Shown one piece after another: positions 2,426 through 22,985 of a DNA stretch of 26,010 bases (positions are counted from its first letter, which is position 1; each line of letters begins with the position of its first letter). The stretch covers positions 1 to 26,010 of the IMG/VR virus record IMGVR_UViG_3300020445_000060. One strand, written 5' to 3'. Position numbers and translations under genes: made by a program. The stretch comes from a virus. The notes below the pieces were generated by a model. It was not told where the DNA came from. It did not search any database and worked only from the letters and a program-made list of their open reading frames with translations.

Positions 2426-2563
2426 ATGGATAATTCCAACGTTAAAAAAATGTGGGAAACCTCTGAAAATAACGAAGAAAATGCATCAGATCCACAAATA
2501 ATACAAGAAATTATGCATGATGACATTCCTTCTAACAAGCAAAGTTTAAAAGAATCCAAATAA
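2426..2563 (+). CDS. Tiny acidic ORF before gp25
   Basis: This encodes 45 residues (MDNSNVKKMWETSENNEENA...), rich in Asn, Glu, Asp and Ser and without hydrophobic segments, so probably disordered or helical. An in-frame ATG at 2390 would add 12 residues (MQINSFLNPFKY) and cannot be excluded, but it lies right on the terminator's T tract. Neither start has a ribosome-binding site, a trait shared with gp25, gp6 and the giant gene. It fills the space between the terminator and the late promoter of gp25, and its stop is three bases before that promoter. Function unknown; coding status moderate. Confidence 0.5.
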   Translation: MDNSNVKKMWETSENNEENASDPQIIQEIMHDDIPSNKQSLKESK

Positions 2564-2566
2564 TAG

Positions 2567-2574
2567 TATAAATA
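2567..2574 (+). promoter_or_regulatory. T4-type late promoter for gp25
   Basis: An exact TATAAATA, the sequence read by the T4 late sigma factor (gp55-type), followed by an A-rich stretch. Its end is 20 bases before ATG 2595, leaving a leader of roughly 14 bases with no Shine-Dalgarno sequence. It probably drives the gp25 - gp6 - giant gene operon. Confidence 0.85.
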
Positions 2575-2594
2575 TAAAAAAATCTTGTTTATAA

Positions 2595-2996
2595 ATGGCA
2601 GTCCAGAGGACATCTAGAGCATTTAAGGACGTTAGTCTATCTTTTGATAGGCATCCTGTTACTAATGATATTCTTGTGCTCAAAAATGAGGACGCAATTA
2701 AGCGATCTATTCGTAATTTGATCCAAACAATGCCTAGTGAGCGATTTTTTAATCCTTATCTTGGTTCTGAGGTAAAAACCAGTCTATTTGAATTTGTAGA
2801 CTTTGGTACTTCCTCAATTTTGGAAGAGCAAATTAAAATTGCAATTGATAATTACGAACCAAGGGTAGAAAATGCTAAAGTTGTCGTAGTTCCAAGAGCA
2901 AATGACAACAGTTTTGAGATAAATGTTTCATTTACTATCATTGGGCAAGACATCTCACCACAAAAATTCAGTTACATACTAGAAGCAACACGATAA
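2595..2996 (+). CDS. 25: Baseplate wedge subunit gp25
   Basis: This 133-residue protein is nearly the same length as T4 gp25 (132). It is a member of the GPW/gp25 family, which joins the wedge to the tail tube and sheath and is thought to prime sheath assembly. The family core is clear: a first strand and loop (VSLSFDRHPVTNDILVLK, about 13-30), the conserved helix and turn AIKRSIRNLIQTMPSERFF, the signature NPYLGSEV, then a helix ending in a two-strand sheet (FEINVSFTI). The 'lysozyme' label sometimes given to this family should not be copied. An exact late promoter sits just upstream, no ribosome site is visible, and gp6 starts one base after the stop. Confidence 0.95.
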   Translation: MAVQRTSRAFKDVSLSFDRHPVTNDILVLKNEDAIKRSIRNLIQTMPSERFFNPYLGSEVKTSLFEFVDFGTSSILEEQIKIAIDNYEPRVENAKVVVVPRANDNSFEINVSFTIIGQDISPQKFSYILEATR

Positions 2997-2997
2997 T

Positions 2998-4861: not shown

Positions 4862-5671
4862 ATGATAAAGACAGGGTTTGATGCTAGGGTCAAAGTACAA
4901 CAAATAATTGATAATCAGTTACCTGAATTTGTATTATCAGAAGCACCGAAAGCAGCTGAATTTTTAAAGCAATATTATATTTCACAAGAATATCAAGGTG
5001 GTCCTATTGATATTGCTGAAAATTTAGATCAATATATAAATTTCAATAATATGACCCAAGATGTGGTTGCAGGAATCACATCTTTAACTAGTGATGTATC
5101 TTTATCTGATACTACTATTTCTGTTGATAATACAAAGGGATTTCCTGATGAATATGGTCTTTTAAAATTAGATGATGAGGTAATAACATATACTGGAAAA
5201 ACTTCAACTAGCTTTACTGGATGTGTTCGTGGATTTAGTGGTATTACCAGTTATAGAGATCCACTTAATGCTGAAGAACTAGTTTTTTCGGATACTTCAG
5301 CAAGTACACATGATAATGGACTTAGAGTAAACAATTTAAGTGCTTTATTTTTAAAAGAATTTTATAGAAAATTAAAAGTTCTCCTTGCTCCTGGATTTGA
5401 AGACGTTGATTTTGTAGAAACTTTAGATATTAATGTTTTTATTAAGCAAATTCGTGATTTTTATCAGGCAAAAGGTACAAATGAAGCATTTAATATTCTT
5501 TTTGCTGTTTTATTTGGTAATAAACCAAAAATAATAAATTTAGAGGAATATTTACTTAAAGCATCTGCTGCAGAATTTATTCGTAGAGAAGTATTAGTTT
5601 GTGAGAAGATAAGTGGAGATCCAAATAAAATAGTTGGACATATGGTTCAACAATCTAATAATCTTGCTGCT
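4862..5671 (+). other. N-terminal wedge-like domain of the giant protein
   Basis: Residues 1-270 look like a globular helical phage structural domain. The N-terminus (VQQIIDNQLPEFVLSEAPK, then FLKQYYISQEYQGGP) is followed by a small beta insert (about 72-125) with GLLKLDDEVITYTG and GCVRGFSG. A second helical part (NNLSALFLKEFYRKLKVLL, then IRDFYQAKGTNEAFNILFAV) continues to about residue 225. The 'LDDE...YTG' insert recurs in altered form near 15300 (DIVKLDDEFLDI). The domain is the likely anchor to gp6/gp8 in the wedge. That role is inferred from position. Confidence 0.65.
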
Positions 5672-8600
5672 GGACCAGTTTCTGAAGTTGAAATTATTAG
5701 TAGAAATAATAGAGTTTTTTATAAAATACAATTATTCTCTGGATTTGATGAAAGAAGTCTAATTCAAGGTAATTTTACAATTTCACCAAAAACTAAGGTT
5801 ACAGACACTGTTTCTATTGGATCATCTGTAATTACAGTAGATTCTACAGTTGGATTTGGAACTACTGGAACAGTAATATCGGGTAATAATACCATTAGTT
5901 ATGGTAATAAAAATGTTAATCAGTTCTTTGATTGTACTGGTGTAACTGCAGTTATTAATCCAACTGATGATATTCGTTCTGATCAAATTATATTTGGATA
6001 TGAAGATGGGGATTCTAGTAAAAAGGTTGAATTAAGAATAACTGGTGTTCTTTCAGATATTAAAGATAAATCTAAATTTGGATTATTATTAGAAGATGAT
6101 TTAGTTTCTGTCAAAAACCTTGGTGAAAATATTTTAAATAAGAATAGAAATTTCAAAGAATTTGCATTTAATACGTGGAAATATAATGTAAGATCTAGAT
6201 ATGAAATTGAAAGCTTTAGTAATAACCAGATCGTTTTATTTGAAAAGGCAGATAGAGCTAGTTTAAAAGTTGGTGATACTGTTGATATTCTAAACAGAAA
6301 TGCTCAAGGTGCAGTTAATAATCTTGCTACAATAACTTTTATTAATGATAAAACCGTACAAATTGATCAGAATATCACTGTTCCTTCTTATACTGCATTA
6401 AGTATAAGAAAAAGATATGATTATGCAGGTGCATCAAATATAAACTTATCATCTTCAAATATTATTGCTGATGTTCAGAATGTTTATAATGAAAAAGATG
6501 AGTATATGTATGTCGCATCAAACTCATTACCAAAATATGAAATAACAAAGAAAAAATCTTATTCTTCTTTTGGATTAACTCCATCAACAACTATAAGTAA
6601 TCATTTTAAAGGATATGATTCTGGAACAAATCAATATTCTATTCTTGGATTTGATAGTAATGTTCCATTTATTACAGGAGATGAGATTGTATATACATCA
6701 TCTGGTTCTGATAATGTAATATCTGGTTTAAAGTTAAATGAAGTATATCATGTAGAAGTAATAAAAGATGGTAATAATACTAATACTATAAGACTATATG
6801 ATTCAAAATCCTTTATAGGAACTACTAAGTATGTTCAATTTGATGCATATTATGCAACATCAACCCATATGTTTACTTTAAGGCAACATAGTGGTAGAAG
6901 TTTAGCACCTAAGAAAGCATTAGCAAAGATTCCATTAGTACCAAATATTCAGTCTGGAACTGATACACCAACAACATTTGGACCTGTTGGTATGTTGGTA
7001 AATGGTGTAGAGATATTAAATTACAAAACTGATGATAAAATTTATTACGGTCCTTTAGAAGATATTAAAGTTTATAATACAGGAACTGATTATGATGTTA
7101 TAAATCCACCATCAATTCTAGCTTCTAAACCATCTGTTGGTATTGGTACTACAGCATTACTTACTGCTGTTGTTAGGGGATCTGTCAAAGATGTTTTAGT
7201 TGATCCTCAAGATTTTAGTATTCAAAGAATTGTTTCTTCAACTATTGATGGTGGAAATGGTAAAGATGCTAATATCTTACCAGTTTTGGTAAAACAATAT
7301 AGAGAAGTAGAATTTAATGCTTCACAAGTTGGTGTTGCATTAACTGGTGGTGTTGATATTACTAATGAAACTATAGTTTTTGAAAAAGAACATAGATTTA
7401 TGGAAGGTGAACCAATTGTTTACAATCCAAGTGGAAATTTACCACTTGGAATAGGTACTTTTGGTGGTTCTAATACAGATCAAGATGAATTTCTTGTTAA
7501 TGGTGCGATTTATTATCCAAAAATTATAAACACTAGAGCAATATACCTTCATAAAACTCTAGACGAATATAATGCTGGTATTAATACGGTTGGATTTACC
7601 ACTATTAATACTGGTGGAATTCATAAATTTAGAGAGCTTAATGAAAAAGATGTAATATCTGAATTTAAGATCCTTAATCCAGGTTATGGATATGAAAATA
7701 GAGTGATGAGAGTTGCTCCTACTGGTATTACAACATCTGTAAGTACTATAAATTTCAAAAATCATGGATTTAATGATGGTGAAATAGTAAATTACAGTTA
7801 TGAAGATACTAATACTGGAACTATAGGAAATCCAATAATAGGTCTTTCTAGTGAAAATTCCTATTATGTAATGAAATTGAATGATGATAGTTTCCAATTA
7901 TCAGATGTTGGTGTTACAGAAGAAAAAATAGGATCAGTTTTCTTTGATGGAGATGGTGATTTTCTTGATATTGGTGGTCATTCTGATTTTTCTCTCGGAA
8001 CTGATGATTTTACACTTGAATGTTGGATAAAAACTGCAGTTTCTGTTGCAGATGGTTCTAAAAATCGTACTATATGGATGTTGGATGGACCTACTGGTGA
8101 TGGTGAAGGACAATTAAAATTTAATATTAATCCTTCTGGAGGAGTAATTAATTTATTGGCATCAACTACTGCTTTTAGTGGAATAAGTGACGTTGCTGAT
8201 GATAAATGGCATTATATTGCAATAGTTCGTAAAGATGAAACTTTTACATTATATGTTGATGGTAAATATGAAAATAGTGCATCATTCAGTGGTAGTTTAT
8301 CACCTAATAATGGATCTCCAAGACCTAGACTTGGTACTTGGAATAATGCTAATGGTAATTTTAATGGAAATATTTCCAACTTAAGGTTGGTTAAAGGTGC
8401 TGCAAGATATATTTCAGACTTTACACCATCAAAAGCACCACTTGAAGATGTTCCTGGAACTATATTATTATGCTGTAAGAATTCTGGTTCAGTAACTGCA
8501 TTTGACGTTTCACCAAAATCAATTACAAATACTGGATCATCTATTAGTGATGCAAGTCCATTCTTCAAATCTACTGCAGAGTATTATTATGAAAGTAGAA

Positions 8601-11600
8601 ATTTTGTAAGATTTAAGTTCCCAGGTACTGGATGGCAAAGGATTTCATATCCACCTGTTACTATTAATGTAAATGCTGAAATTACTGGTGGTTCTATAGG
8701 TACTATTACAGCAACTCCAATTGTTAGAGGTGAAATAGTTGATGTATTTGCATATGAAAAAGGAACTGGATATGGATCAAAAATTCTCAATTTTGAAAGA
8801 AAACCAACTTTAACAATTAAAAATGGACTTTCTGCTCAATTGAAGTCAATTGTAAAAGATGGTAAGTTAATTGCAGTAGAAGTTCAGAATGGTGGATCAT
8901 TCTTTAATGCTGCTCCAGATTTAACTGTTAAAGGTAAAGGTGCTGGTGCAAAAATAAGAGCAGTTGTTGCAAACGGAAGAATTATTGATGTTATTGTTCT
9001 TAATAAAGGAACTAATTATGAAGATAATAGTACTTCAATTTCTATAACTCCTCCTGGTAGAAATTGTGTTTTAGATCCAAGTGTAAGACCACTTGTAGTT
9101 AATAATCATGCTAGATTTGGTGATGAGGTATTGTATGAGAATAAAGACGATTTATCATATACTATCGTTGGATATTCAACTATTAGAGATGGTACTGCAG
9201 TAGGTGATCCAAATCCAGATACAGGACATTCTGGAGTTATAGGATGGGCTAATGATGGTAATCCAATTTATGGACCATTTGGATATGATGATCCAAAAGA
9301 TTTAACATCTTCAATTGTAAAATTAGAAACAGGATATAGTGCATCACAATATAATATTACTGATAGACCTCCAATAAATGATTTTGAATTAGGTTATTTT
9401 GTTGAAGATTATAAATTTGATAGTACTGGACATTTAGATATTCATAATGGTAGATTTACAAAAACACCAGAATTTCCTAACGGTGTTTATGCTTATCATG
9501 CTGGAGTAACTACTAATTTTGATAATAATACATTAAAAGCAGAATTTCCTTATTTCGTTGGAGATACTTATAGATCAAATCCTTCAGTAACAATACTTGA
9601 TCAGAGCTTTGACTTTATTAATTCAGAATTGGTTAGAAATACTTATCCTTATAGAGTAAGACAAGATTATTCTGGAAATGATTTCTTAGTTGAATCTAAT
9701 GAAGAATATAACCAAACTGCTATTATTGAATCTGCTTCTAGAGGAACTATAGATTCACTAACTATCGTTAATCCAGGAACAGATTATAAGGTTGGAAATA
9801 CTATTAATTTTGATAATACAAATACTGAAGGTGGTGGAGCGACTGCAGAAGTTACTTTTATTGATGGTAAGGAAATTGTAGATTTAACTACTTCTTATGA
9901 CAAATTTGAAAATTCAGTTATTGTTTGGGAAAATCAAGAAAATTTAAGAGTATATACTCATTATAATGGCAATTTTTCACCAAAAACACACAATCTTTTA
10001 AATGGTGATAGAATTACGATTTCGGGTGTTACTACTCACGTAGATGGTTTATTAGATTCTCATATAATAGGAGTTACTTCAGAAACAAGTTATTTGATTG
10101 ATGATTTACCAGAGCATTCTACTTCTGGTATTGTTACTGATATCTATGTTTCTAGTATACCACCTTTAATTGGTGCAGGAACATCTGTTGGTATTGGAAC
10201 AGAAAACTTAATTGTTATTGATAGGTATGATGATCAAAATATAATAAGAGTTAAGAGGGAACTAACTGGTGTTGCTCATACTATAGGTACTAATATTTAC
10301 TTTAGAGCAGATTCCTTTACTATTCCATTAGCATCGGATTATTTTGAATCTGAGAAGGATGATAAAGTCTACTTTAATCCAAATCAGTCTGTTGGTGTAG
10401 GTGTAGCAACAGGTACAGAGACATCTATTGCTCAATTTGTTGGTAATACTAAGAAAGTTATATCAATACCAACTCAAAGCATTTATTTACCAGATCATCC
10501 ATTTAAAACAAATCAAGCACTTGTTTTAAGAAAAAATACTGGTGATAATGCTATACAAGTTAGAGATACTTCTTCTGGACCTAATATTAATTTACCTGTA
10601 AGTGGTGATCAACAAACAGTATATGTTGTAAACCAAGGAAAAGATTTTGTAGGTCTTGTAACACAAATTGGATTAACAACAAGCACAAGTGGTTTATTCT
10701 TTAATAATAATGGTTCTAATAGTTACAATTATTCTTTAGAGACTACTAAGACTCAATTAGTTGCTACTGCTAGTAAAATTAAAACTTTAGTAGCAATTTC
10801 AACAGTACATAATTTAACTAATCAAGATAAAATTGAGTTAAATGTTAAACCAAGACTTTCTTTAGGAGTTGATGAAGATGTTTCTATAAAAGTTAAGTAT
10901 AATAACACTTATAATAAGATTCTTCTTAATCCTATAGGATTTAGTTCAAGTCTAGTTAAAAATTCATCTTATGGTACAGATAGATTACATAGTAGTTTTA
11001 ATCTTAATACTCATCAATTAAATTCTGGAGATAAAGTTTTCTATACAGCAGGTGATAATGATATTGCTGCTGGATTAGATACAGGATCTTATTTTGTATA
11101 TAAGATAGATGATAATAATATTAAATTAGCAAATACTTATATAGATGTATTCTCAGATCCACCAAAAATTATTAGTATTGGTAGTACTGGAGGAGCAGTT
11201 CAAGAAATAAGTAAAGTTAATCCTCAGATTGAAGTAATTAAAAATAATAATGTAGTATTTAATATATCCGATAGTTCTTTAATAGGTTATGATTTTAAAT
11301 TATTCTATGACCAAAAAGTAAGTAATCAATTTGTTTCAACAGGAACAACTAATACATTCTCGGTTGTGAGAAATGGAACGGTTGGTATTAATACATATGC
11401 ATCAGCTACTATTACTTACAATAAGGATTTACCTACTAAGTTATATTATTCTTTAGAGAAATCTGGTAAAATTATTGATCCTGATAAAGATGTTAAGCAT
11501 TATTCTGAAATTTTATATAGAGATAGTGTTTATAAAGGATCATTTACTGCTTTTGGAATAGGTTCTACTTCATTCTTTATTTCTTTAGATGAAGTCCCAG

Positions 11601-14600
11601 AAAGATTAAAATATATTAAATCTGATTGTACTGATTTAAAATATACTACATCTTCTTTAACTGCTAGTGGACCAATAACCAATTTAAATATTATTTCTGG
11701 TGGTGCAAATTATAAGAAGCTTCCAACTATTAGTGGATTATCTACTGGAACATCAACTTCTCTTGGTAATAATGCAATTATTAGACCACAAACCAATACT
11801 ATTGGTAAACTTAATGAATTTAGAATTTTAAATGAAGGATTTGAATATTCATCTGATACAACTCTCAATCCTCAAGCACAAATTTACACACATCTTGGAT
11901 TAGAGGGATCTGAGAAAATAACAAGAATAGAAGTTATTAGTGGAGGTAAAAACTATACTTCTCCACCAGATGTTGTTCTAGTTAATGAGTATACTAAAAA
12001 AATTGTTGATAGTGGAGCATTAAGAGTTAGTCCATCGTTTAATGCTAATTCAATAGATGCTATTGAAATTATTGACGAACCAAAAGGATTGGACTCAGTA
12101 TCTCATAGACTTTATACTGTAAAAAATAGTAATGGAATACAAGTTGTAAGAATAACAAATTATAATTCAAATACTGGTGTTGTAACATTAGAACTTAATA
12201 CGCCAGCTATTGATGGATTTATTACTCCACCATTTAGCGTTGGTGATGAGATTTTTGTTGAAGGTCTTGGAAGAAAGTCACAAACTGATGATTTGGGAAA
12301 TGTAACAACTCCAGGCGATGGATTCAACTCAACAGATCATAATTATAATTTCTTTAGAGTAACTTCATATACAAACTCTAATCCAGCTGTTTTAGAATAT
12401 AATATTGGAGATTATACTACCAATGCTGGAAATCCTTTAGGTTCTGAATCTACATTTACTTCTATTGTTAAATCTGATAATTATCCTGAATTTTCTATTA
12501 CTAGAGTACCAAGTCTTTTCTTTATTGAAGAGTTTATTAAAATAAATGATACTCTAACAGATTTAAAAGTTAAAGTTGTAGATAAAAGCTTTATTAAAGT
12601 TGTTGGTGATTATGAATTAAAAGTTGGTGATATATTAACTGGAGCAACATCTGGTAATTTTGCTACAGTTAATAGTATTGATGCATATAATAATAGATTT
12701 GTAATTGATTATGCAAATAGAAAACATTTTGGATGGAAAGATGATCGTGGACAGTTAAGTAATGATCTTCAAGTAATACCAGACAATGATTATTATCAAA
12801 ATCTTTCATACACTGTTAAGAGTCCAATAACTTGGGATAAAATGGTTGATCCAGTTAATAAACTGGTTCATACAGTAGGAATGAAGAATTTTGCTGATAC
12901 GGAAGTACTTTCAAAAGCACAAGTTGCTATAGGAGTAACTCAATCTCTATCTCCTGTATTAGATTTCATATCTTCAAGAAGAGTTGATACTATTAATAAT
13001 TTCGATTTAGTTGCAGATTATGATCCTGGTGTAGATTTCTCTAGATTTATTCTTTTCCAAAGTAAGAAATTAACAGATTATATTTTATGTGAGACTAATA
13101 GAGTTCTTCAAATAGATGATATTAGTGGTGCTTTCTCAAGTTCTGAATTAAATAGGCAAACTTTTACTGATGTATCATTATATTCTATTACAGATTTCTA
13201 TTCTAAGTTCTTAATACAAGTAACAGATGAAGAAAAACAAACTAGCCAATTAAGTGAAGTTGTTGTTCTAAACAATTTTGATAGTACATTTACTGCAAAT
13301 AAAGCAGAAATTTATACTGATACAAAACTCGGTGATTTTAGTGGATTATTAGGGGATGTTGGAGATCCTGTTTTAAGATTTACCCCAACAAATCCAAATG
13401 ATTTTAGTTATAATTTAAAAGTTTATAGAGAATCATTTGATATTGCACCATTTAATATTGGAGTAGGATTTACTGATATTGGATTTACTAGATTATCTTC
13501 TAAAACAGAAAGATTGGGACCAGCAGATGGATCTGGAACACTTGGTTTTAGTACAACAGTCTTTAGATCATTATCCAGTCAGTTTGATGCTTTCTTTGGA
13601 TATGCTCATGTAAGAAATGAATCTACTGAAAGACAGAATTATTTTGAAGTTGCTGGATATTATGATGGTCAAGACACTCATATAGCAGAATCTTATTTTG
13701 ATACTGATAGTTTCCAAGGTTTCTCTGGAAGTTATATTGGTACTTTTGGATTAACTGTTGATAGTGGTATTATGAGATTGAAGTTTGATAATATGGTTAA
13801 TGATAATATTACTGTTAAAACTAAGGTAGTTGGTATAGGATCTACTACTGCTGGTATAGCAACATATAGATATCTCGTTACTGATCAAATTGCTGGAACA
13901 GAAAGAACTGCAAGATTGGAATCTGTATATAAGATTGCATCTGGTTTAACTACTGTCTTTACTTTAGATAAAACTCTAGAATTTTCTGATAAATCTATAA
14001 TTAAAGTTGGAGTAGGATCTACTGCGGCTGTTCATAATCTATGGGTTTCTTTAGATACAAATAGACATGCTTCAATGCATTCTCCATTTATATCTGTTGG
14101 TAGTACATCTGGTATTGGAACATTTTCAACTGCTTTATCTGGAGACACTCTTTCAGTTATATTCCACCCAGATCCAGAATTTGCTTCAGATAATATAGAA
14201 GTACAGGCATATAATCAAATAATATATGCTGATAAAGATGAATTTAACATTCCAGGAAATTATACTTATGGAACATCAATTGAAGGAATAAGTAATGCAT
14301 TCTATGGATCATTGAATGAATTTGGTAAAGATAAGTTAGATTTTGATGTTAAGTATAATAATATACCAATATATCAAAAAACATTCAATCCAAAGACTAC
14401 AAGTATATTAAATCGTGCTACAGGTCTCTTTAGTATTGATAATCATTTCTTTGAAACTGGTGAAGAACTAGTTTATACTCCAGATTCAACTTTACTTGGT
14501 ATTGATGGAACACCTATTGGTATTGGATCTGCTAGAGTACAAGGTGTACAGTTTACTGCTGATATTATTGCTGGATTCTCAACTGTTACTGGTATTGCAG

Positions 14601-17600
14601 ATACTACTTCAATGGCAGTTGGACAATCAATTGAACATCTTGCAACTAGTGGTCAGACTATAGATGATTATCTAATAACAGGAATTAGTACAGGGTACAA
14701 TTATTTTTATGGTGATACTACTGGTTCTAGTAATGTTATTACAGGTATTGCTAATACAACATTACTGAGTGTTGGTGCAATAGTATTCAAACAAACAACA
14801 GATGCTGTAATAGCTGGTGCTGGATCAACCATTACAAATATTGGAATTAATTCTATCACATTAAGTGCTAATACAACATTACCAACAGCAACAGGTGTAG
14901 CATTGTATTCAACTGATGTTGCTTGGCACTTGAGTATGAATAATGTTTCTACTGGAACTACATTCAGAGAAAGATTTGAAGTTGGTTTATCAACTACTAT
15001 TTGCCCAACAAAAGTTTATGCTATTAAAGTTACTAAAGATACATTTAAGATTACTGGTACTTCTGGAGGAACTTCTTCTAATCCAGGTGTAGGATTTACC
15101 TTTACTTCTACAGGAACAGGTAATTATCATAGACTTGAAATGACGAAGAAGCTTGAAAAAGCATTAATTACTGTTGATGGTGTAACTCAGTATCCTTTGA
15201 TGTATACTCCATTATCATATACTCTTGCAAATAATACTTCAACTATTGGTGCTGGATTAACATTCTTATCACTTTCTGGTATTTCATCAATAAAACCAAG
15301 AGATATTGTAAAATTAGATGATGAGTTTCTTGATATTCTTAATGTTGGATTAGGTACTCTTCCAGTTGGACCTATTTCTGGTGTTGGAACATATCCTGTT
15401 ATTGAAGTTAAGAGAGGATTTGTTGGAAGTTCTGCAACAACTCATACTGATGGAAGTTCAATTAGAATATACAAAGGTGCCTTTAATATTGTAGGAAATA
15501 AAATATGGTTTACTGATGCTCCTGATGGTAGAGGAGATAATAATAGATTGAATTCTAGTGCTCTTGCAAAAGCGAAATCTACATTTAATGGTAGAGTTTA
15601 TCTTCGTACAGATTATACTGGTAATAAAGTATATGATGATATTTCTCTAAGTTTCAATGGAATAGGAAGATCATTTACTGTTTATAAGGAAGGACAAAAT
15701 ACAACTGGTGTAGAAGCTGGAAGTGACCTTGTATTCATTAATGATGTATTCCAGACACCAAATACAGTTAATAATGCTGGAAATAACTATGTATTTGCTG
15801 AAACTGCTGGAATTACTAGTGTAACCTTTACTGGAATTACCAGAACTGGTACTGATGATATTATAACTGTTGATTATGATATTAACCAGAATCAGATCCC
15901 AAGAGGCGGTGTAGTAGTTTCTCTTGGATCTACAGGTGGATTAGGTTATGCACCTCTTGTAGGAGCATCAGTCACCACTACAGTGAACGCTGCTGGTGCA
16001 ATAACTTCTATTGGTATAGGATCTACAGGAACATTTGGATCTGGATATAGTGGACAAGTTGGTATTGCAATATCTGATCCTCAACATGTTGGAAGTGCTG
16101 CTACTATTGTTGCTACAGTTGGTGCAGAGTATCCTCATAAGTTTGTAAGTGCAGGAACTAGTGCCATATACTATGGTGGACAATACTCCCATACCTTCGT
16201 AGGTGCTGCTCAGAGTGCAGTTACTAAAGTTGGTGGTGCTTCTACAACACCAACTGGTGCAACTTATAATCCCGCTACAGGTGTTCTTGTATTAACATTT
16301 GCTAATGCTCATGGTATTACTGCAAGTGATTTTATTAGAATAGGAAGAAATACACTAACATTTACTTGTACTAAAGATAATAATGCTACACAACATGCTT
16401 ATCCTCGTGCAACTGATCCTGTTGATGGAAAGAATATAGATGTTACTGCAGTTACAACAAGTAGTCCTCATACTGTAACTGTTAATGTTGGAATATCGAC
16501 TGTTAAATATCATAATATTTCTGATGCTGAATATAATCCTGCAACTGGAGATTTAGTTGTAACATCAGTTGGGCATGGACAAACTGCAGGTAATATTGTT
16601 GGTATTGCAACAAATTCGATAGTATTTACATGTGGACAAGATAATTATTCTTCCGAGCATTCATATCCACGTTTAACTGACCCTGCTAATAATAAATCCA
16701 TTTCAATTGGAACAACATCTATTAACACATTTACTTTAAATGTTGGTAAATCACAATCAGGTGATGGTGGAGAATTAACATTTAATATAATTGGTATGGG
16801 TACTGGATATGTAAATCCAGTTATACAAGTAGATAATCCAGCATACGCTAATTTGGGTGTTAAAGGATTATCTAGATTGGGTCTTGGAGATACTACATCA
16901 ACAGGTATTGGTTTATCAATGACCTTTGAATCTAGACCATCAAGTGCTAAACCTCAAGAAGATAGATTTGGTGATGCTGCATCTCTTATTCGCCAAAACA
17001 AAACACTAATTGGTGAAGTTGCTGTTCAGCGTATGTTGGATAAGTATAACGGTCCTTATGAGCATAAATTTGATTCTGGATCTAGTACTTTAACTAATGC
17101 TGTTAATATAGTAGGTGCTGGTAATCTTACACCTAATGCTGCAGCATATAATGCCTCAACTGGTGTTTTAACACTAGGATTTGCTGGTAATCATGGATTA
17201 GTAACAAATGATGCTATTTCGATTGTTGATCGTTCTTTAGCATTTACATGTGCCTTAGATAATTTTGATACTACAACTCTATACCCTCGTGGTGATGATC
17301 CAGTTGGTTCTGGTAGAACTGTTGCTATTACTAAGACATCAAATACAGAATTTACTGTTAATGTTGGTGCTGCTATATTTAAGGTAGCATCTGGTGTTGG
17401 TACATTTGTTAATCAAGATTGTATTGATGATGTTATAGATGTTGTAGATGTTGTTGCATATAATACCGAATATGGTGGTAATGATAGAACTTATGATGCT
17501 GCGAATCTGTATATAAGTGGAGCTCATGTTGCTGATGAAGAACCACAGACCATATATGCTTTCCAGCAAGCCAGAGATATGGCAATACAAGCAATGCGTA

Positions 17601-20600
17601 ATGAACGTATTGGTATTCAATCTGGTGGACAGTATGTTCATAAGTTTGTAACTTCAAATGCTAATGCTGTAACTAGTGGTGGTGATTATCCACATACATT
17701 CGTAAGTGCAGCAAGTAGTGCAGTATACAGTGGTGGTGATTATGCACATACATTTGTAGGTGCTACTTCTGGTGCAGTTCGTATTGGTTCTTGGGTTGGT
17801 GCTGGATTAACACCCACACAAGCAGTTTATACACCATCAACTGGTTTACTAACATTTACAGTTTCTGGTAGACATAATCTTAGACATGGTGTTGATACTG
17901 TTGGTATTGCTACTAATTCATTAACATTTACTTGTGCAAGAGATAATCATGCTACTGAGCACACATATCCTCGCACAACTGATCCAGTACATAACCTTAT
18001 TAATGTTGCAGTTGCATCTACAACTTTAACCAAATTTACTGTTAATGTTGGTGTATCAACCTTAGTATATCATCCAGTTTCTGCTGCAGCATATACTCCT
18101 GGAACTGGTGATTTAACAATGACAGTTGGGAATTTGCATGGATTATCCCCTGCAACTTCACATACAATATCTACTGCAACATACACACCAACAACTGGTA
18201 TTTGTACCTTTACACTTGCATCTCATGGATTTGCTAAAGGTGAATATGTCAAGATAGATGATGGAGCATTGAAATTTACATGTGCTAAAGATAATCATGC
18301 TGGATTACATACATATCCTCGTTCATCAGATCCTGTTAGTGGTAGATGGCTTCCAATTCTTGGTGTAGCTGCTAATACATTTGAAGTTAATGTTGGATAT
18401 GCAAATAGTGATGATGTTGGTATTCATACTCTTGTATCTGTAGTTAATAATAGCCTTAAGAAAGCAGTAAGTAATATTGGAATTAATACAGCATCTCTAA
18501 CCTTTACATGTGCTAGAGATTCACATGCAACACAACATGCTTATCCTCGTGCTGGATACGCTCATACATTTGTGAGTGCATTAACTGATTGTATTAGTGT
18601 AACTGGGGCAGCATCAAGAACTCCTACAGGAGCAACTTATGATGGAGTAACTGGTGATTTGGTAATAGACTTTGGTAGAGCACATGGAATGAATACTTCC
18701 AATACCGTTGGTATTGCTACTAATTCATTAACATTTACTTGTGCTTTAGACAATCATGCTACTAATCACACTTATCCTCGTGTAACTGATCCTGTTCATA
18801 ATGTCACAACATTACCTGTTCTTTCAACAACTACTAATACTATTACAATTAATGTTGGAAGATCTGGTACTAATGATCCAGTACATAAAGCAGTAATTGG
18901 TGTTGGAGCAACTGCACCTACTACAATTACAGTTAATGTAGGTGTAACAACTTTAGCACCTAAAGGTATTTCTACAGCGACTTATGCTCCTAATGACGGT
19001 AAATTAGTATTCACATCACCTAATCATGGATTACGTGCTCCAACTAAGCACACAATAACAACATGTACCTATACACCAAGTACAGGTGTATTGATTCTTA
19101 ATATTCCTCATCATCAGTTTACTAATGGTGATTATATTAAGATTAAAGATGATTCTATATTAATGACATGTGCTAAGGATAATCATGCATCACAACATTC
19201 TTATCCTAGACCTAGTGATCCTTCAAGCAACAAGTGGTTATCAGTTTCTGGTGTAGGGATTAATACCTTTGCAGTCAATGTGGGTGTTTCTCCAGATTTA
19301 TCTGCTCATACATTTGTATCTGCAACTACTGGTGGTATTGAAAGATCATCCAGCAGTGTTGGAATTGCTACTACTTCCTTAACATTCACATGTGATAAGG
19401 ATGATCATGCTACACAACATCATTATCCTCGTACAACTGATTTTGCTCATAATGAATCAATTCAAGTTGATGCTGTAGACGGAAATACATTTACTGTAAA
19501 TGTGGGTGTATCTTCAACAGCATTTACCGATTATAAGCAAATTTACGATAAGGGAATAAGAGGAGATTATACAAGAATACCTGGAGAATATACAGTTGGT
19601 GATTGTGCAAACGTTGCTTCTGCTATTGATGTGTTGGTAGGAATTGTTACTATTGCTGTTGGTGCATCTGTTTTACCAGTTAGAACACCTGCTAATACTA
19701 ATTTATTCAGCATATCTAAATTTGATATTAAAAACCCAGGATATTCTTTTGAAAGAGGAGATATATTTGAACCAATTGGAATTGTTACTGCTAAAGGTTT
19801 AGTTGGTGCAAGATATGCACATAAATTTGTTGGTTCTGCAACTAGTTCAATTGTTTCTGGTGGTGATTATGCACATACATTTGTAAGTGCAACAACAGAT
19901 GCCATTTATGAAGGTGGTAGTTATGATCATACATTTGTAAGTGCAGCTGCTAGTGCTATTGTACCTAAGACAACTCATCCTTGGATTGGTATTGGAATAA
20001 CTCCTACAGATGCTGATTACAATGCGGAAACAGGTGCTTTACTATTAACATTTGCTTCTAGTCATGGACTTACTGGTAGTGATAAGATAGGAATTGCAAC
20101 CAATTCTTTAGTATTCACATGTGCAAGAGATAATTACGCAACACAACACGCTTATCCTCGTTCAAGCGACCCTGTTCATAATAATGGTGAAATATCAATT
20201 GCATCAACTACTACTGATACTATTACCGTAAATGTAGGTGTATCTACTATTGTTAATCATCCAGTGGGTGTTGTAACATATGTTCCATCAACTGGAAATA
20301 TAGTTGTAACTGTTGGTGCTGGTCATTCATTCACTGGATTTAGTACACATACAATTTCAACTTGTACATATACACCTTCCACAGGAACTTTAGACTTTAC
20401 AGTTACTGGTCATGGATTCTCTGAAGGTGAATATATTCAAATTCCAAATAATTCATTGAGATTTACATGTACTAAAGATAATCATGCTACATTCCATACT
20501 TATCCAAGAACTACTGATCCAAATAGTAGTAAATGGTTACCAATACAACAAGTAGGAGTTAATACATTCCAAGTTAATGTTGGAAATTCTAAAGATTCCA

Positions 20601-22975
20601 CTGCTGGAGTTCATAGATATGTTTCTTCTGCTACACCTAATGTTCCCGCACATTTAAATAAAGCAACTTACACTGTTGGATTTAGCACTGGTGGAATGGT
20701 ATTTACATGTGCTAAAGATGGACATGCAACACAACATGCTTATCCAAGAACAACTGACCCTGTTCATAACAGAGAAGTTGGTATAAGCGTTGCAGACGCT
20801 ACATCAATTGTTCTAAATGTTGGTATATCAACTATTGTTAGATTTACTCCTTCTGGTGCTAATTACAATCCAAATAGTGGTGATCTAATTTTAATAACAG
20901 ATAATCCACATAAGATGAAAGTTGGTGATGTTGTTGGTATTAATACTGATTCATTAACCTTTAAGTGTGCTCAAGATGGTTATTTAACTAATCATACATA
21001 TCCTCGTTCAACTGATCCAGCGAATGATTCTCAACTAGGAATTACAACTACTACTGATTATACATTTACTGTAAATGTTGGTGCATCTCCTATTGCTCAA
21101 GCACGTAAGAGATTAAAACTTAGTGTTGAAGATACATTTAATGATTCATTTGCATCATGGCAACTTGGTGAATTTGATTATATTGATAGTATTGGGGATC
21201 TCCAAGATGGAAATAGAACTAGATTCCCACTATACAAAAATAGTCAACTTCTAAGTTTCCAAAAAGATCTATCTGATGTAACATCATCTCTAATTGATTT
21301 TGATGCGGTTCTATTGATTTATGTAAATGGTGTTATGCAAGAACCAAAAGTTTCTTATGAGTTTACTGGTGGTACTACATTTACATTCTTACAAGCACCA
21401 TTAAAAGAAGATAAAGTAGATATTTTCTTCTATAGAGGAACTCGTGATGTTGATAGTTTTGAAAAAGATATTCCAGAAACTGTTAAACCAGGTGATGATG
21501 TACAAATCAATAAGAATGATCAGATTTCAGGAACTATAGGACAGGATTCTAGAACTATTACTCGTATTTTAGCATCTGATACAACAGAAACTGGTATTTA
21601 TCTTGGAGATGGTATTGATTCTGTTAATTACAAACCAGTTGACTGGTCTAAACAGAAGCGTGACATGTTAATTGACGAGAATCCAGTATATAAGACTAGA
21701 GATTCCTTAGAAGGACATGTATTCCCAACTGCTAAAGTTATAAAAGACTTTAAATCGGATGATGAAGAAATTTTCTTAGATGACGCTCAATTCTTCAATT
21801 ATGAAGAAAATGAATCAGATATTGAAATAGATAAAGTTTCTGGAATATTATTTGATGGTACTACTTCTTATGTTGCAGATCTAGACGCTAATGTTTCCGT
21901 TGCTGGAACGGTTACTTCTATTAGCGTTGCTGCTGGAGGTACTGGATATACACCAGGTACACTTTCTCTTAAAATTTCTCCTCCAGTTGGTAGTACTCTT
22001 GATTCTTTCTGGAATAAAGAGGGAGATATTAATGTTGGGGTTCATACTGTATTCAAGACAGTTGTCAGTGGAGTTGGTTCTATTGGTGCTGGATCTACAG
22101 TTATTAATGGTATTTCAACTGAAGGTATTAGAATTGGACAAACTATACAAGCAATATCAAATATATTGGGTACTGGATTAACAGTAACTGGAATAACATC
22201 AGCATATGGTGGTACTATTCTTTATGCTGGAATTGGAGGTACACAAGCTTCTGGTAATACATCTTCAATGTTTGATCAATTCCATTTTGGTAGATATGAA
22301 GATCAGAAATTAGCATCTGCAACTGCAACTGTTAATTCAAGTGGAACTATTACTGGTACTACTATGGTTAATCCAGGTTTTGGATATACATCCACTAATT
22401 TACCATTAGTAATTGCTCCATTACCATCTGCTCAAAAAGAATTAATTAGTGGAATTAGATTTGTACAAGGATTTACTGGAATAATAACTGGAATAACAAC
22501 CAGTGTTGGTGTATCACATCCTTTAGCAATTACATTCCATATGCTATATGATGTTAAGGATTCAACTAGACTTGACGATTTAACATCTGGTCATCCAATT
22601 CACATTTCACAAACAACTGTTGGACATGGAGTAACATCTGTTGATGGATCTAATCTTTCTGTTGTTGGAAGAGGAACAACCTTCTGCGATAATATATACC
22701 AGGTACATTCAATTACTAGAACAAGTTTAACTGGAATTATTACATGTAATGTTCATACTGGAATATCAACAGTTGGACTTCATAGTATGAGTGGTGAACA
22801 TGTTGGAAGACTATCTTGGGGTAGACTAGCTGGATTTACCAGATCTTCTACTTCTATCGGTGTAGCAGTTTCTGGATATACTGTTAATTCTGGATTAACA
22901 ACATTCCCAGTTATTCAAAGACGTGGTTATGGACTTAGAGATAAAGGATCCCTAAGAAAAGACCTTGGTCTTTAA
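4862..22975 (+). CDS. Giant modular baseplate/virion structural protein (gene 7 position)
   Basis: One uninterrupted frame of 6037 codons (18.1 kb). It begins one base after gp6 and ends just before the gp8 late promoter, exactly where T4 places gene 7, whose product is the wedge initiator (1032 residues). No homology to T4 gp7 can be claimed by eye. Regions in order: wedge-like N-terminal domain (about 1-270); beta-rich part with repeated glycine motifs (NTGTDY, NPGYGY, KGTGY, NPGTDY, SGGANY, SGGKNY); LamG-like domain (about 1024-1235); YHYH-type domain (about 1440-1575); a conserved FGWKDD...DNDYYQNLSY segment (about 2620-2690); further beta modules; a split helical domain; the Cys/YPR and HTFVSA repeat array (3757-5413); and a C-terminal structural domain (about 5425-5660) with a Gly-rich tail. 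There is no signal peptide or membrane segment. Codon use is strongly A/T-ending throughout. It probably projects from the baseplate. Some marine phage annotations use VrlC-type names for large structural proteins; I cannot confirm that link. Confidence 0.93.
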   Translation: MIKTGFDARVKVQQIIDNQLPEFVLSEAPKAAEFLKQYYISQEYQGGPIDIAENLDQYINFNNMTQDVVAGITSLTSDVSLSDTTISVDNTKGFPDEYGLLKLDDEVITYTGKTSTSFTGCVRGFSGITSYRDPLNAEELVFSDTSASTHDNGLRVNNLSALFLKEFYRKLKVLLAPGFEDVDFVETLDINVFIKQIRDFYQAKGTNEAFNILFAVLFGNKPKIINLEEYLLKASAAEFIRREVLVCEKISGDPNKIVGHMVQQSNNLAAGPVSEVEIISRNNRVFYKIQLFSGFDERSLIQGNFTISPKTKVTDTVSIGSSVITVDSTVGFGTTGTVISGNNTISYGNKNVNQFFDCTGVTAVINPTDDIRSDQIIFGYEDGDSSKKVELRITGVLSDIKDKSKFGLLLEDDLVSVKNLGENILNKNRNFKEFAFNTWKYNVRSRYEIESFSNNQIVLFEKADRASLKVGDTVDILNRNAQGAVNNLATITFINDKTVQIDQNITVPSYTALSIRKRYDYAGASNINLSSSNIIADVQNVYNEKDEYMYVASNSLPKYEITKKKSYSSFGLTPSTTISNHFKGYDSGTNQYSILGFDSNVPFITGDEIVYTSSGSDNVISGLKLNEVYHVEVIKDGNNTNTIRLYDSKSFIGTTKYVQFDAYYATSTHMFTLRQHSGRSLAPKKALAKIPLVPNIQSGTDTPTTFGPVGMLVNGVEILNYKTDDKIYYGPLEDIKVYNTGTDYDVINPPSILASKPSVGIGTTALLTAVVRGSVKDVLVDPQDFSIQRIVSSTIDGGNGKDANILPVLVKQYREVEFNASQVGVALTGGVDITNETIVFEKEHRFMEGEPIVYNPSGNLPLGIGTFGGSNTDQDEFLVNGAIYYPKIINTRAIYLHKTLDEYNAGINTVGFTTINTGGIHKFRELNEKDVISEFKILNPGYGYENRVMRVAPTGITTSVSTINFKNHGFNDGEIVNYSYEDTNTGTIGNPIIGLSSENSYYVMKLNDDSFQLSDVGVTEEKIGSVFFDGDGDFLDIGGHSDFSLGTDDFTLECWIKTAVSVADGSKNRTIWMLDGPTGDGEGQLKFNINPSGGVINLLASTTAFSGISDVADDKWHYIAIVRKDETFTLYVDGKYENSASFSGSLSPNNGSPRPRLGTWNNANGNFNGNISNLRLVKGAARYISDFTPSKAPLEDVPGTILLCCKNSGSVTAFDVSPKSITNTGSSISDASPFFKSTAEYYYESRNFVRFKFPGTGWQRISYPPVTINVNAEITGGSIGTITATPIVRGEIVDVFAYEKGTGYGSKILNFERKPTLTIKNGLSAQLKSIVKDGKLIAVEVQNGGSFFNAAPDLTVKGKGAGAKIRAVVANGRIIDVIVLNKGTNYEDNSTSISITPPGRNCVLDPSVRPLVVNNHARFGDEVLYENKDDLSYTIVGYSTIRDGTAVGDPNPDTGHSGVIGWANDGNPIYGPFGYDDPKDLTSSIVKLETGYSASQYNITDRPPINDFELGYFVEDYKFDSTGHLDIHNGRFTKTPEFPNGVYAYHAGVTTNFDNNTLKAEFPYFVGDTYRSNPSVTILDQSFDFINSELVRNTYPYRVRQDYSGNDFLVESNEEYNQTAIIESASRGTIDSLTIVNPGTDYKVGNTINFDNTNTEGGGATAEVTFIDGKEIVDLTTSYDKFENSVIVWENQENLRVYTHYNGNFSPKTHNLLNGDRITISGVTTHVDGLLDSHIIGVTSETSYLIDDLPEHSTSGIVTDIYVSSIPPLIGAGTSVGIGTENLIVIDRYDDQNIIRVKRELTGVAHTIGTNIYFRADSFTIPLASDYFESEKDDKVYFNPNQSVGVGVATGTETSIAQFVGNTKKVISIPTQSIYLPDHPFKTNQALVLRKNTGDNAIQVRDTSSGPNINLPVSGDQQTVYVVNQGKDFVGLVTQIGLTTSTSGLFFNNNGSNSYNYSLETTKTQLVATASKIKTLVAISTVHNLTNQDKIELNVKPRLSLGVDEDVSIKVKYNNTYNKILLNPIGFSSSLVKNSSYGTDRLHSSFNLNTHQLNSGDKVFYTAGDNDIAAGLDTGSYFVYKIDDNNIKLANTYIDVFSDPPKIISIGSTGGAVQEISKVNPQIEVIKNNNVVFNISDSSLIGYDFKLFYDQKVSNQFVSTGTTNTFSVVRNGTVGINTYASATITYNKDLPTKLYYSLEKSGKIIDPDKDVKHYSEILYRDSVYKGSFTAFGIGSTSFFISLDEVPERLKYIKSDCTDLKYTTSSLTASGPITNLNIISGGANYKKLPTISGLSTGTSTSLGNNAIIRPQTNTIGKLNEFRILNEGFEYSSDTTLNPQAQIYTHLGLEGSEKITRIEVISGGKNYTSPPDVVLVNEYTKKIVDSGALRVSPSFNANSIDAIEIIDEPKGLDSVSHRLYTVKNSNGIQVVRITNYNSNTGVVTLELNTPAIDGFITPPFSVGDEIFVEGLGRKSQTDDLGNVTTPGDGFNSTDHNYNFFRVTSYTNSNPAVLEYNIGDYTTNAGNPLGSESTFTSIVKSDNYPEFSITRVPSLFFIEEFIKINDTLTDLKVKVVDKSFIKVVGDYELKVGDILTGATSGNFATVNSIDAYNNRFVIDYANRKHFGWKDDRGQLSNDLQVIPDNDYYQNLSYTVKSPITWDKMVDPVNKLVHTVGMKNFADTEVLSKAQVAIGVTQSLSPVLDFISSRRVDTINNFDLVADYDPGVDFSRFILFQSKKLTDYILCETNRVLQIDDISGAFSSSELNRQTFTDVSLYSITDFYSKFLIQVTDEEKQTSQLSEVVVLNNFDSTFTANKAEIYTDTKLGDFSGLLGDVGDPVLRFTPTNPNDFSYNLKVYRESFDIAPFNIGVGFTDIGFTRLSSKTERLGPADGSGTLGFSTTVFRSLSSQFDAFFGYAHVRNESTERQNYFEVAGYYDGQDTHIAESYFDTDSFQGFSGSYIGTFGLTVDSGIMRLKFDNMVNDNITVKTKVVGIGSTTAGIATYRYLVTDQIAGTERTARLESVYKIASGLTTVFTLDKTLEFSDKSIIKVGVGSTAAVHNLWVSLDTNRHASMHSPFISVGSTSGIGTFSTALSGDTLSVIFHPDPEFASDNIEVQAYNQIIYADKDEFNIPGNYTYGTSIEGISNAFYGSLNEFGKDKLDFDVKYNNIPIYQKTFNPKTTSILNRATGLFSIDNHFFETGEELVYTPDSTLLGIDGTPIGIGSARVQGVQFTADIIAGFSTVTGIADTTSMAVGQSIEHLATSGQTIDDYLITGISTGYNYFYGDTTGSSNVITGIANTTLLSVGAIVFKQTTDAVIAGAGSTITNIGINSITLSANTTLPTATGVALYSTDVAWHLSMNNVSTGTTFRERFEVGLSTTICPTKVYAIKVTKDTFKITGTSGGTSSNPGVGFTFTSTGTGNYHRLEMTKKLEKALITVDGVTQYPLMYTPLSYTLANNTSTIGAGLTFLSLSGISSIKPRDIVKLDDEFLDILNVGLGTLPVGPISGVGTYPVIEVKRGFVGSSATTHTDGSSIRIYKGAFNIVGNKIWFTDAPDGRGDNNRLNSSALAKAKSTFNGRVYLRTDYTGNKVYDDISLSFNGIGRSFTVYKEGQNTTGVEAGSDLVFINDVFQTPNTVNNAGNNYVFAETAGITSVTFTGITRTGTDDIITVDYDINQNQIPRGGVVVSLGSTGGLGYAPLVGASVTTTVNAAGAITSIGIGSTGTFGSGYSGQVGIAISDPQHVGSAATIVATVGAEYPHKFVSAGTSAIYYGGQYSHTFVGAAQSAVTKVGGASTTPTGATYNPATGVLVLTFANAHGITASDFIRIGRNTLTFTCTKDNNATQHAYPRATDPVDGKNIDVTAVTTSSPHTVTVNVGISTVKYHNISDAEYNPATGDLVVTSVGHGQTAGNIVGIATNSIVFTCGQDNYSSEHSYPRLTDPANNKSISIGTTSINTFTLNVGKSQSGDGGELTFNIIGMGTGYVNPVIQVDNPAYANLGVKGLSRLGLGDTTSTGIGLSMTFESRPSSAKPQEDRFGDAASLIRQNKTLIGEVAVQRMLDKYNGPYEHKFDSGSSTLTNAVNIVGAGNLTPNAAAYNASTGVLTLGFAGNHGLVTNDAISIVDRSLAFTCALDNFDTTTLYPRGDDPVGSGRTVAITKTSNTEFTVNVGAAIFKVASGVGTFVNQDCIDDVIDVVDVVAYNTEYGGNDRTYDAANLYISGAHVADEEPQTIYAFQQARDMAIQAMRNERIGIQSGGQYVHKFVTSNANAVTSGGDYPHTFVSAASSAVYSGGDYAHTFVGATSGAVRIGSWVGAGLTPTQAVYTPSTGLLTFTVSGRHNLRHGVDTVGIATNSLTFTCARDNHATEHTYPRTTDPVHNLINVAVASTTLTKFTVNVGVSTLVYHPVSAAAYTPGTGDLTMTVGNLHGLSPATSHTISTATYTPTTGICTFTLASHGFAKGEYVKIDDGALKFTCAKDNHAGLHTYPRSSDPVSGRWLPILGVAANTFEVNVGYANSDDVGIHTLVSVVNNSLKKAVSNIGINTASLTFTCARDSHATQHAYPRAGYAHTFVSALTDCISVTGAASRTPTGATYDGVTGDLVIDFGRAHGMNTSNTVGIATNSLTFTCALDNHATNHTYPRVTDPVHNVTTLPVLSTTTNTITINVGRSGTNDPVHKAVIGVGATAPTTITVNVGVTTLAPKGISTATYAPNDGKLVFTSPNHGLRAPTKHTITTCTYTPSTGVLILNIPHHQFTNGDYIKIKDDSILMTCAKDNHASQHSYPRPSDPSSNKWLSVSGVGINTFAVNVGVSPDLSAHTFVSATTGGIERSSSSVGIATTSLTFTCDKDDHATQHHYPRTTDFAHNESIQVDAVDGNTFTVNVGVSSTAFTDYKQIYDKGIRGDYTRIPGEYTVGDCANVASAIDVLVGIVTIAVGASVLPVRTPANTNLFSISKFDIKNPGYSFERGDIFEPIGIVTAKGLVGARYAHKFVGSATSSIVSGGDYAHTFVSATTDAIYEGGSYDHTFVSAAASAIVPKTTHPWIGIGITPTDADYNAETGALLLTFASSHGLTGSDKIGIATNSLVFTCARDNYATQHAYPRSSDPVHNNGEISIASTTTDTITVNVGVSTIVNHPVGVVTYVPSTGNIVVTVGAGHSFTGFSTHTISTCTYTPSTGTLDFTVTGHGFSEGEYIQIPNNSLRFTCTKDNHATFHTYPRTTDPNSSKWLPIQQVGVNTFQVNVGNSKDSTAGVHRYVSSATPNVPAHLNKATYTVGFSTGGMVFTCAKDGHATQHAYPRTTDPVHNREVGISVADATSIVLNVGISTIVRFTPSGANYNPNSGDLILITDNPHKMKVGDVVGINTDSLTFKCAQDGYLTNHTYPRSTDPANDSQLGITTTTDYTFTVNVGASPIAQARKRLKLSVEDTFNDSFASWQLGEFDYIDSIGDLQDGNRTRFPLYKNSQLLSFQKDLSDVTSSLIDFDAVLLIYVNGVMQEPKVSYEFTGGTTFTFLQAPLKEDKVDIFFYRGTRDVDSFEKDIPETVKPGDDVQINKNDQISGTIGQDSRTITRILASDTTETGIYLGDGIDSVNYKPVDWSKQKRDMLIDENPVYKTRDSLEGHVFPTAKVIKDFKSDDEEIFLDDAQFFNYEENESDIEIDKVSGILFDGTTSYVADLDANVSVAGTVTSISVAAGGTGYTPGTLSLKISPPVGSTLDSFWNKEGDINVGVHTVFKTVVSGVGSIGAGSTVINGISTEGIRIGQTIQAISNILGTGLTVTGITSAYGGTILYAGIGGTQASGNTSSMFDQFHFGRYEDQKLASATATVNSSGTITGTTMVNPGFGYTSTNLPLVIAPLPSAQKELISGIRFVQGFTGIITGITTSVGVSHPLAITFHMLYDVKDSTRLDDLTSGHPIHISQTTVGHGVTSVDGSNLSVVGRGTTFCDNIYQVHSITRTSLTGIITCNVHTGISTVGLHSMSGEHVGRLSWGRLAGFTRSSTSIGVAVSGYTVNSGLTTFPVIQRRGYGLRDKGSLRKDLGL
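7931..8566 (+). other. LamG / concanavalin-like domain inside the giant protein
   Basis: Residues about 1024-1235 match the LamG_3 pattern: an opening strand VFFDGDGDFLDI, then DFTLECWIKT, a central DDKWHYIAIVRKDETFTLYV, and the closing FNGNISNLRLVKGAARY. The aromatic and acidic positions of the fold are present. Such jelly-roll domains bind carbohydrates or proteins, which fits contact with a host surface polymer. It interrupts a run of GxGY-type modules and is a clean single-copy insertion in the reading frame. Confidence 0.85.
9180..9590 (+). other. YHYH-type domain inside the giant protein
   Basis: Residues about 1440-1575 carry the family signatures GWANDGNPIYGPFG (starting near 1461), LDIHNGRF (about 1525) and NGVYAYH ending at His1546. 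YHYH domains occur in secreted bacterial proteins and in marine phage virion proteins. Their biochemical role is not firmly known. Confidence 0.8.
12590..12950 (+). other. Conserved DNDYYQNLSY structural segment of the giant protein
   Basis: Residues about 2577-2697 contain GDYELKVGDILTGATSGNFA, RKHFGWKDDRGQLS, PDNDYYQNLSYTVKSPI and HTVGMKNFADTEV. Charged and aromatic residues are dense, unlike the repetitive modules around it, which suggests a strongly constrained interaction surface. I recall closely similar wording in other T4-like marine phage structural proteins. The function is unknown. Confidence 0.55.
16968..17611 (+). other. Helical domain split by an inserted repeat module
   Basis: Residues about 4036-4065 (DAASLIRQNKTLIGEVAVQR) and about 4186-4250 (DCIDDVIDVVDVVAYNTEYG, then TIYAFQQARDMAIQAMRNER) form two predicted helical halves. 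Between them lies one HKF-type motif and one complete Cys/YPR module (Cys4130). From memory, other marine phage structural proteins have the two halves adjacent, so the module seems to have been inserted. A fragment resembling the second half recurs at about residues 4914-4935 (DCANVASAIDVLVGIVTIAV). Confidence 0.55.
17731..17758 (+). repeat. 28-bp exact direct repeat, copy 1
   Basis: Identical to 19858-19885, 2127 bp away (a multiple of three). It encodes GGDYAHTFV in both places and falls in the first HTFVSA cluster. Confidence 0.9.
17900..17937 (+). repeat. 38-bp exact direct repeat, copy 1
   Basis: Identical to 18707-18744, 807 bp away (269 codons, in frame). It encodes VGIATNSLTFTC, the lead-in to the module Cys at residue 4358. 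Identity at DNA level, including third positions, points to recent duplication or gene conversion. Confidence 0.92.
18707..18744 (+). repeat. 38-bp exact direct repeat, copy 2
   Basis: Second copy of the repeat at 17900-17937, leading into the module Cys at residue 4627. Confidence 0.92.
19858..19885 (+). repeat. 28-bp exact direct repeat, copy 2
   Basis: Second copy of the repeat at 17731-17758, in the HTFVSA cluster that opens the third higher-order block. Confidence 0.9.
21140..21840 (+). other. C-terminal structural domain of the giant protein
   Basis: Residues about 5427-5660, after the repeat array. Seen: FNDSFASWQLGEFDYIDSIG, a LIYVNGVMQEPKVSYEF strand pair, KVDIFFYRGTRD, and PVDWSKQKRDMLIDENPVYK (from residue 5592). 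An altered copy of the 'N-[GD]-V-x-Q-x-P' strand pair lies at about 15730-15800 (VFINDVFQTPNTV). The region is non-repetitive and charged, which suggests a folded end-piece. It is followed by more GxGY motifs and a basic, Gly/Leu-rich end. Confidence 0.6.
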
Positions 22976-22977
22976 TT

Positions 22978-22985
22978 TATAAATA
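22978..22985 (+). promoter_or_regulatory. T4-type late promoter for gp8
   Basis: An exact TATAAATA two bases after the stop of the giant gene and 19 bases before ATG 23005, nearly the same geometry as the gp25 promoter. It gives gp8 and the following gene their own late transcript, so they do not depend on an 18-kb read-through. Confidence 0.87.

Follow-up and report, generated by a model that had tools for sequence, protein, structure and literature searches.

The Giant Gene and Its Genomic Context

The window, i.e., the whole analyzed stretch of 26,010 nt from the IMG/VR record of a marine cyanophage (IMGVR_UViG_3300020445_000060), contains baseplate genes on the plus strand, with a gene of giant size located between those of the gp6-like and gp8-like wedge proteins (Table 1). 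Its frame starts with ATG a single base downstream of the gp6 stop codon and extends over 6037 codons without a stop, a length that the base composition by itself would not produce (log10 P ~ –218); each of the other five frames contains 268–904 stops in the same region. The same gene is unbroken (5934 aa, 94% identity of the proteins) in the contig IMGVR_3300020411_002746, 95% identical to the window at the DNA level, and dN/dS between the two is 0.12–0.25 in most 500-aa blocks. Judging by these ratios, most of the length of the gene is under purifying selection, and the intact ortholog together with dN/dS points to a single selected gene, not an assembly fusion; an assembly or frameshift artefact is ruled out on the same grounds. 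Hence, the claim of the first-pass annotation that a 6037-residue single-frame protein lies between gp6 and gp8 is confirmed by the open frame and the second contig, and its estimate of about six times the length of T4 gp7 (1032 aa) is accurate, the ratio being 5.85. Two scanned parts of the protein match the profile of PHROG 2885 with 2105 and 1453 bits.

Table 1. Predicted features of the window (aa, residues of the giant protein).
Feature	Coordinates	Strand	Support or comment
gp25-like sheath initiator, upstream neighbor	2595..2996	+	PF04965 E 1.3e-13; PHROG 261
gp6-like wedge protein, expected (gp6)2-gp7 partner	2998..4860	+	PF21379 E 9e-18; PHROG 219 E 9e-202
Giant gp7-type wedge protein	4862..22975	+	6037 aa, 650 kDa; PHROG 2885; intact in independent contig
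gp7 core, first piece (aa 1-310): helices, inserted beta subdomain, FYxxKGT motif (aa 198-226)	4862..5791	+	hhalign, PDB hmmsearch
Beta subdomain between core helices (aa 66-155)	5057..5326	+	AlphaFold2 strands aa 72-158, local pLDDT 60-85
Insertion inside gp7 core (aa 311-2634)	5792..12763	+	gap between core pieces
LamG cassette (aa 1019-1242)	7916..8587	+	linker comparison; absent from 135/135 other relatives measured
LamG core (aa 1041-1180), exchanged between alleles	7982..8401	+	PF13385 E 2.6e-15
YHYH domain (aa 1456-1558), motif histidines lost	9227..9535	+	PF14240 E 9e-26
gp7 core, second piece (aa 2635-2787), motif YYQxxSYxxKS...HxxG	12764..13222	+	profile matches to pf16, HTVC008M, D506, T4 gp7
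C-terminal extension (aa 2788-6037)	13223..22972	+	follows second core piece
Repeat array (aa 3757-5420): 13 units with C..D...YPR..DP plus HTFV hairpins	16130..21121	+	motif count; two-unit model
One-repeat-unit stretch (aa 4063-4183), mostly missing from 95%-identical relative	17048..17410	+	ortholog alignment
Second divergent tract in array (aa 4551-4700)	18512..18961	+	dS 0.30, dN 0.29
Conserved C-terminal module (aa 5748-6037)	22103..22972	+	aligns to C-termini of S-SRM01 (35%), S-SM2 (25%)
gp8-like wedge protein, downstream neighbor	23005..24564	+	PF09215 E 1.2e-10; PHROG 438
VrlC (DUF4815), 5' part; in print said to replace gp7	24567..26009	+	PF16075 E 2e-38

Upstream of the baseplate genes, positions 1072–1827 encode a conserved protein (PHROG 1574) that weakly resembles glycosyltransferases. 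The T4-type late promoter motif NATAAATA is found just before gp25 (2567–2574) and between gp7 and gp8 (22978–22985), its count across the window being below the chance level.

Cyanophages of the giant-gp7 kind abound in the oceans; tblastn with the first 3000 aa retrieves 463 phage records, nearly all from cyanophages and often annotated as “baseplate wedge initiator” or “gp7.” The length of the slot protein varies widely, from 7312 aa in P-SSM4, 6180 in S-SM1, 6037 in the window, 5195 in P-SSM2, 4446 in P-HM1 and 4225 in ACG-2014f, to 4156 in S-SM2, 3895 in S-SRM01, 3048 in S-PM2, 1016 in HTVC008M and 523 in pf16 (1032 in T4). Giant gp7 is thus general in cyanophages, and the class is already known. 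In two phages the slot annotation is irregular, with frameshifts or real splits being possible: the first 7 kb of the giant gene are unannotated in S-SKS1 (L005:15001-25186), and in B23 (L015:19998-31777) two genes are annotated, one encoding 2845 aa and a further one.

Assignment to the gp7 Wedge Family

According to published work, cyano- and pelagimyophages lack gp7 and have VrlC in its place (PMC7029224), so that the giant protein would be an unrelated structural protein in the gene 7 slot; databases, contrary to this, call the slot protein gp7. The similarity to T4 gp7 is indeed below the reach of ordinary pairwise searches, as phmmer of aa 1–500 against PDB yields no match. In profile searches, however, gp7 is the only protein recognized. 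With a profile built from 11 cyanophage N-termini, the match to that of T4-like gp7 has E = 1.3e-6, compared to 0.023 for the best of 40 column-shuffled profiles, 0.55 for the reversed profile, and 0.18 or worse for seven other T4 baseplate proteins. With hhalign, the N-terminal profile matches the C-terminal part of T4 gp7 (residues 641–1032) at E = 9e-10, and residues 1–690 of T4 gp7 match none of the segments tested. When all PDB sequences were scanned by hmmsearch with a 15-sequence N-terminal profile, the best two matches were T4-type gp7 proteins, those of KP1 (5.5e-5) and T4 (1.8e-4), followed by a match at 0.17. The identification as gp7 made in the first-pass annotation therefore holds.

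The structural part of the HHpred/AlphaFold-type check proposed there for the N-terminus is less clear than the profile part, in which hhalign detected gp7. The AlphaFold2 model of aa 1–340 is weak (pLDDT 61, pTM 0.40), and while its top two matches among 350,542 PDB chains come from the KP1 and T4 baseplates, have lengths fitting gp7, and reach E-values of 4e-3 and 8.5e-3, the TM-scores are low, so that with a model of this quality the fold match is only suggestive. By analogy, we infer that the beta subdomain between the core helices is placed similarly to the loop by which XM1 gp17 binds spikes (PMC10457771).

The window protein scores 18.4 bits with the Pfam wedge family PF23786 against the cut-off of 27, which is exceeded by the pf16, HTVC008M and D506 proteins, and the Pfam scan finds in it neither Gp7_helical nor domains V and VI. 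Hence, on the evidence of profiles, the giant protein belongs to the wedge family without being a full-length gp7 of the T4 type, as found in Straboviridae. VrlC, in turn, resembles neither gp7 (hhalign E = 0.38 or worse) nor other T4 baseplate proteins, which speaks against its being a substitute, as does the HTVC008M slot protein of 1016 aa passing the wedge cut-off. Taken together, these comparisons support the gp7 assignment against the printed statement, which is corrected here; that gp7 is absent and VrlC substitutes for it seems very improbable.

Two existing annotations are affected. The “putative structural protein” encoded between gp6 and gp8 of the Pelagibacter phage HTVC008M (L225:2936-5986), the cultured reference pelagimyophage, is gp7 (PF23786 E = 8e-13) and contradicts the printed absence in pelagimyophages. 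In the Vibrio phage D506, the gene directly after gp6 (L226:6751-7758), annotated as “head closure Hc2,” encodes a gp7-type wedge protein of 335 aa (PF23786 E = 7e-62).

The Split Core

Aligned by blastp with the 523-aa protein of pf16, the window protein yields two collinear matches, aa 157–347 and aa 2632–2720. A profile of the second region (aa 2600–2790), built with pf16 left out, finds pf16 (6e-16), HTVC008M (7e-16), D506_0216 (3e-6) and T4 gp7 (1.6e-4), as well as all five other T4-like gp7 proteins used, including one gene fragment; the controls, other T4 baseplate proteins, stay above 0.3. The link of the second piece to T4 is the weakest one in the split core, the above E-value being obtained in a small set and hhalign giving 8e-4. 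The counterparts in T4 gp7 are approximately residues 725–823 for aa 1–310, and approximately 865–917 for aa 2635–2787. By these comparisons, the protein has a conserved core in two collinear pieces, between gp6 and gp8.

The distance between the pieces is 14 aa in D506, 33–91 aa in T4-like phages, 184 aa in pf16, 473 aa in HTVC008M, and 1536–2750 aa in giant cyanophage proteins (2345 aa in the window). As in T4 and D506 the pieces lie almost side by side, about 2,300 aa have been inserted within the core of the window protein, and the simplest account of its anatomy would be that an insertion grew within the core and that the protein was also extended at its C-terminus, by about 3,250 aa. Given the split, LamG and YHYH reside in a loop, both ends of which return to the wedge core. 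Comparison with pf16, HTVC008M and D506 made us drop the layout of an N-terminal wedge followed by a tail: of the anatomy proposed in the first-pass annotation, the LamG, YHYH and Cys/YPR array regions are present, but the wedge core is not solely N-terminal. The sizes of gp7, which run from 335 up to 7312 aa, are largely explained by growth at defined sites. In the longest giants, S-SM1 and P-SSM4, a further insertion of about 500 aa separates the first helices from the FYxxKGT part of the core, which starts there at about aa 615.

Removable Modules of the Loop and the Extension

The LamG domain of the loop, which is concanavalin-like and thus of a sugar-binding type, is well above the PF13385 cut-off (57.3 vs. 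27.6 bits). The cassette containing it has been found in four sequences, the window, L229, L230 and L231 (the last two nearly identical), its site being occupied by a linker of 1–9 aa in all of the 135–136 ORFs of relatives measured. Around the site, the window and L229 are 95–100% identical, and in the first 22 residues of the cassette, 86%; within aa 1041–1180 the identity falls to 49%, and the three LamG alleles are about 50% identical to one another. Since dS in this core is 0.44 compared to 0.02–0.11 nearby, a divergent allele has been exchanged. Positive selection by point mutation was considered and rejected, as dS is elevated as much as dN, which fits allele exchange better; neutral recombination could be behind the exchange. 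As the core is exchanged between nearly identical phages, LamG is most likely the putative binding site, and aa 1041–1180 are a candidate receptor-binding module of the giant gp7, a concrete one that can be expressed.

The second recognizable domain of the loop, YHYH, belongs to a type for which jumbo-phage work predicts a metal-dependent hydrolase with a histidine-based metal site (PMC7824862), and, with the strong PF14240 match, an enzyme attacking the cell envelope might be expected. The motif, however, reads YAYF in most of the 117 aligned family sequences and YAYH in the window. Of the residues linked to the motif, H1456 and two aspartates are retained, and the triad of histidines plus aspartate of the hydrolase is lacking in the window protein. 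These substitutions make a structural role more likely than an enzymatic one, and we give hydrolase activity hardly any credence.

The extension carries the C/YPR array, in which the motifs of the 13 units span aa 3836–5382, with C, D, YPR and DP conserved in all or nearly all of them. A two-unit model (pLDDT 84) consists of beta domains, and comparison of the unit fold with PDB structures gave no match better than E = 0.05. Similar units are also present in tail-fiber and structural proteins of cyanophages, and good matches in the viral library come from phage proteins only, mostly those of cyanophages. A cellular source was rejected, as the two matches in genome contigs are a short MAG contig, possibly of phage origin, and a match of 25 aa. 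The former is the Flavobacteriales contig NHFO01000035.1, with a unit of 54% identity, which may be a misbinned phage contig.

Alignment with the 3895-aa protein of S-SRM01 covers aa 1–1018, 1243–3799 and 5748–6035 of the window protein. The array region comprises about 1,950 aa in the window vs. 178 aa in S-SRM01, and together with the LamG cassette (about 225 aa) it accounts for nearly all of the length difference. The array changes its length, units coming and going among relatives. The comparisons place the extra mass of the protein at two sites, the loop and the extension, both with removable modules, the LamG cassette and the C/YPR array, respectively.

Proposed Role

Slot proteins of relatives are found in virions: that of S-SM1 (T4-like GC969) was detected in purified particles (PMC3037559), and so was ORF122 of S-CREM2, with 91 unique peptides and 27.2% coverage (PMC10665884). 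The latter sits between ORFs placed like gp6 and gp8 and is about 1,937 aa long, so that this result does not cover the longest extensions. In these two relatives, the proteomic check proposed in the earlier annotation thus comes out in its favor. In the Vibrio phage XM1, gp17 makes up the core bundle together with two gp6-ortholog chains, and 12 spikes attach to it (PMC10457771). In contractile injection systems, re-engineering is said to have its hotspot in the gp7-like part (PMC8894135).

We consider it probable that the giant protein is a gp7 wedge subunit whose loop and extension form a host-contact surface tethered to the baseplate. By analogy with T4 and XM1, the core pieces would fold together and connect a pair of gp6 chains per wedge; with one gp7 per wedge, a virion would contain six copies with a combined mass of about 3.9 MDa. 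Both the loop and the extension would project from the baseplate edge, so that the contact surface would be built into the wedge instead of consisting of separate spikes. On this surface, LamG is proposed to act as a specific binder, and the YPR array may serve as a spacer or a low-specificity binding surface with length variable by recombination. As both ends of the LamG-bearing loop are at the wedge core, its binding could, speculatively, help trigger contraction. The fiber or curtain shape and the anchoring to surface polymers suggested in the first-pass annotation are hypothetical.

Alternatively, the extensions may be mainly structural, replacing the missing gp10/gp11/gp12 periphery and stiffening a large baseplate with no direct host binding. 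Such a role would agree with the reported lack of g10, g11 and g12 in cyanomyoviruses, summarized in a review (PMC2984593), with the conservation of most of the length under purifying selection, and with the loss of the YHYH metal site. It does not account for the LamG cassette, which the baseplate does not need, as all 135 other relatives lack it, and whose core is exchanged, nor for array units that come and go, and we find it rather unlikely. The missing periphery of cyanophages may be fused into gp7.

Extended to the whole cyanophage gp7 family, the contact-surface interpretation would mean a contact loop of about 1,500–2,750 aa that leaves the core, re-enters it and mechanically ties receptor binding to the contraction trigger, with at least one lineage swapping its lectin like an antigenic cassette; this generalization is possible, but we propose it tentatively.

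A literature search, which was not exhaustive, found no published description of the split core layout or of a lectin exchanged between near relatives, and both features of giant gp7 appear not to have been described previously. Giant gp7 is real and selected, the split anatomy and the exchanged lectin being apparently new aspects of a known class.

Comparison With Known Systems

The giant gp7 proteins of P-SSM2 (YP_214343), P-SSM4 and other members of PHROG 2885 share with the window protein the slot, the split core and YHYH, and some of them have YPR units; they differ in having no LamG cassette at the aa 1019–1242 site and a shorter or absent array. T4 gp7 shares the wedge core pieces and the gp6-gp7-gp8 order, but its core is preceded by about 640 aa and lacks a large insertion, so that its extra mass precedes the core, unlike that of the window protein. 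In HTVC008M (1016 aa) and pf16 (gp212, 523 aa), the core starts from the N-terminus and is in two pieces, and the slot is the same as in the window, but the insertions comprise just 473 and 184 aa, respectively, and Pfam reports no LamG or YHYH. Finally, XM1 gp17 (242 aa) is orthologous to gp7 and holds the spikes with a loop and its C-terminus (PMC10457771), a similarity drawn from its published description; in XM1 the spikes are separate proteins, whereas in the window protein large modules are fused in.
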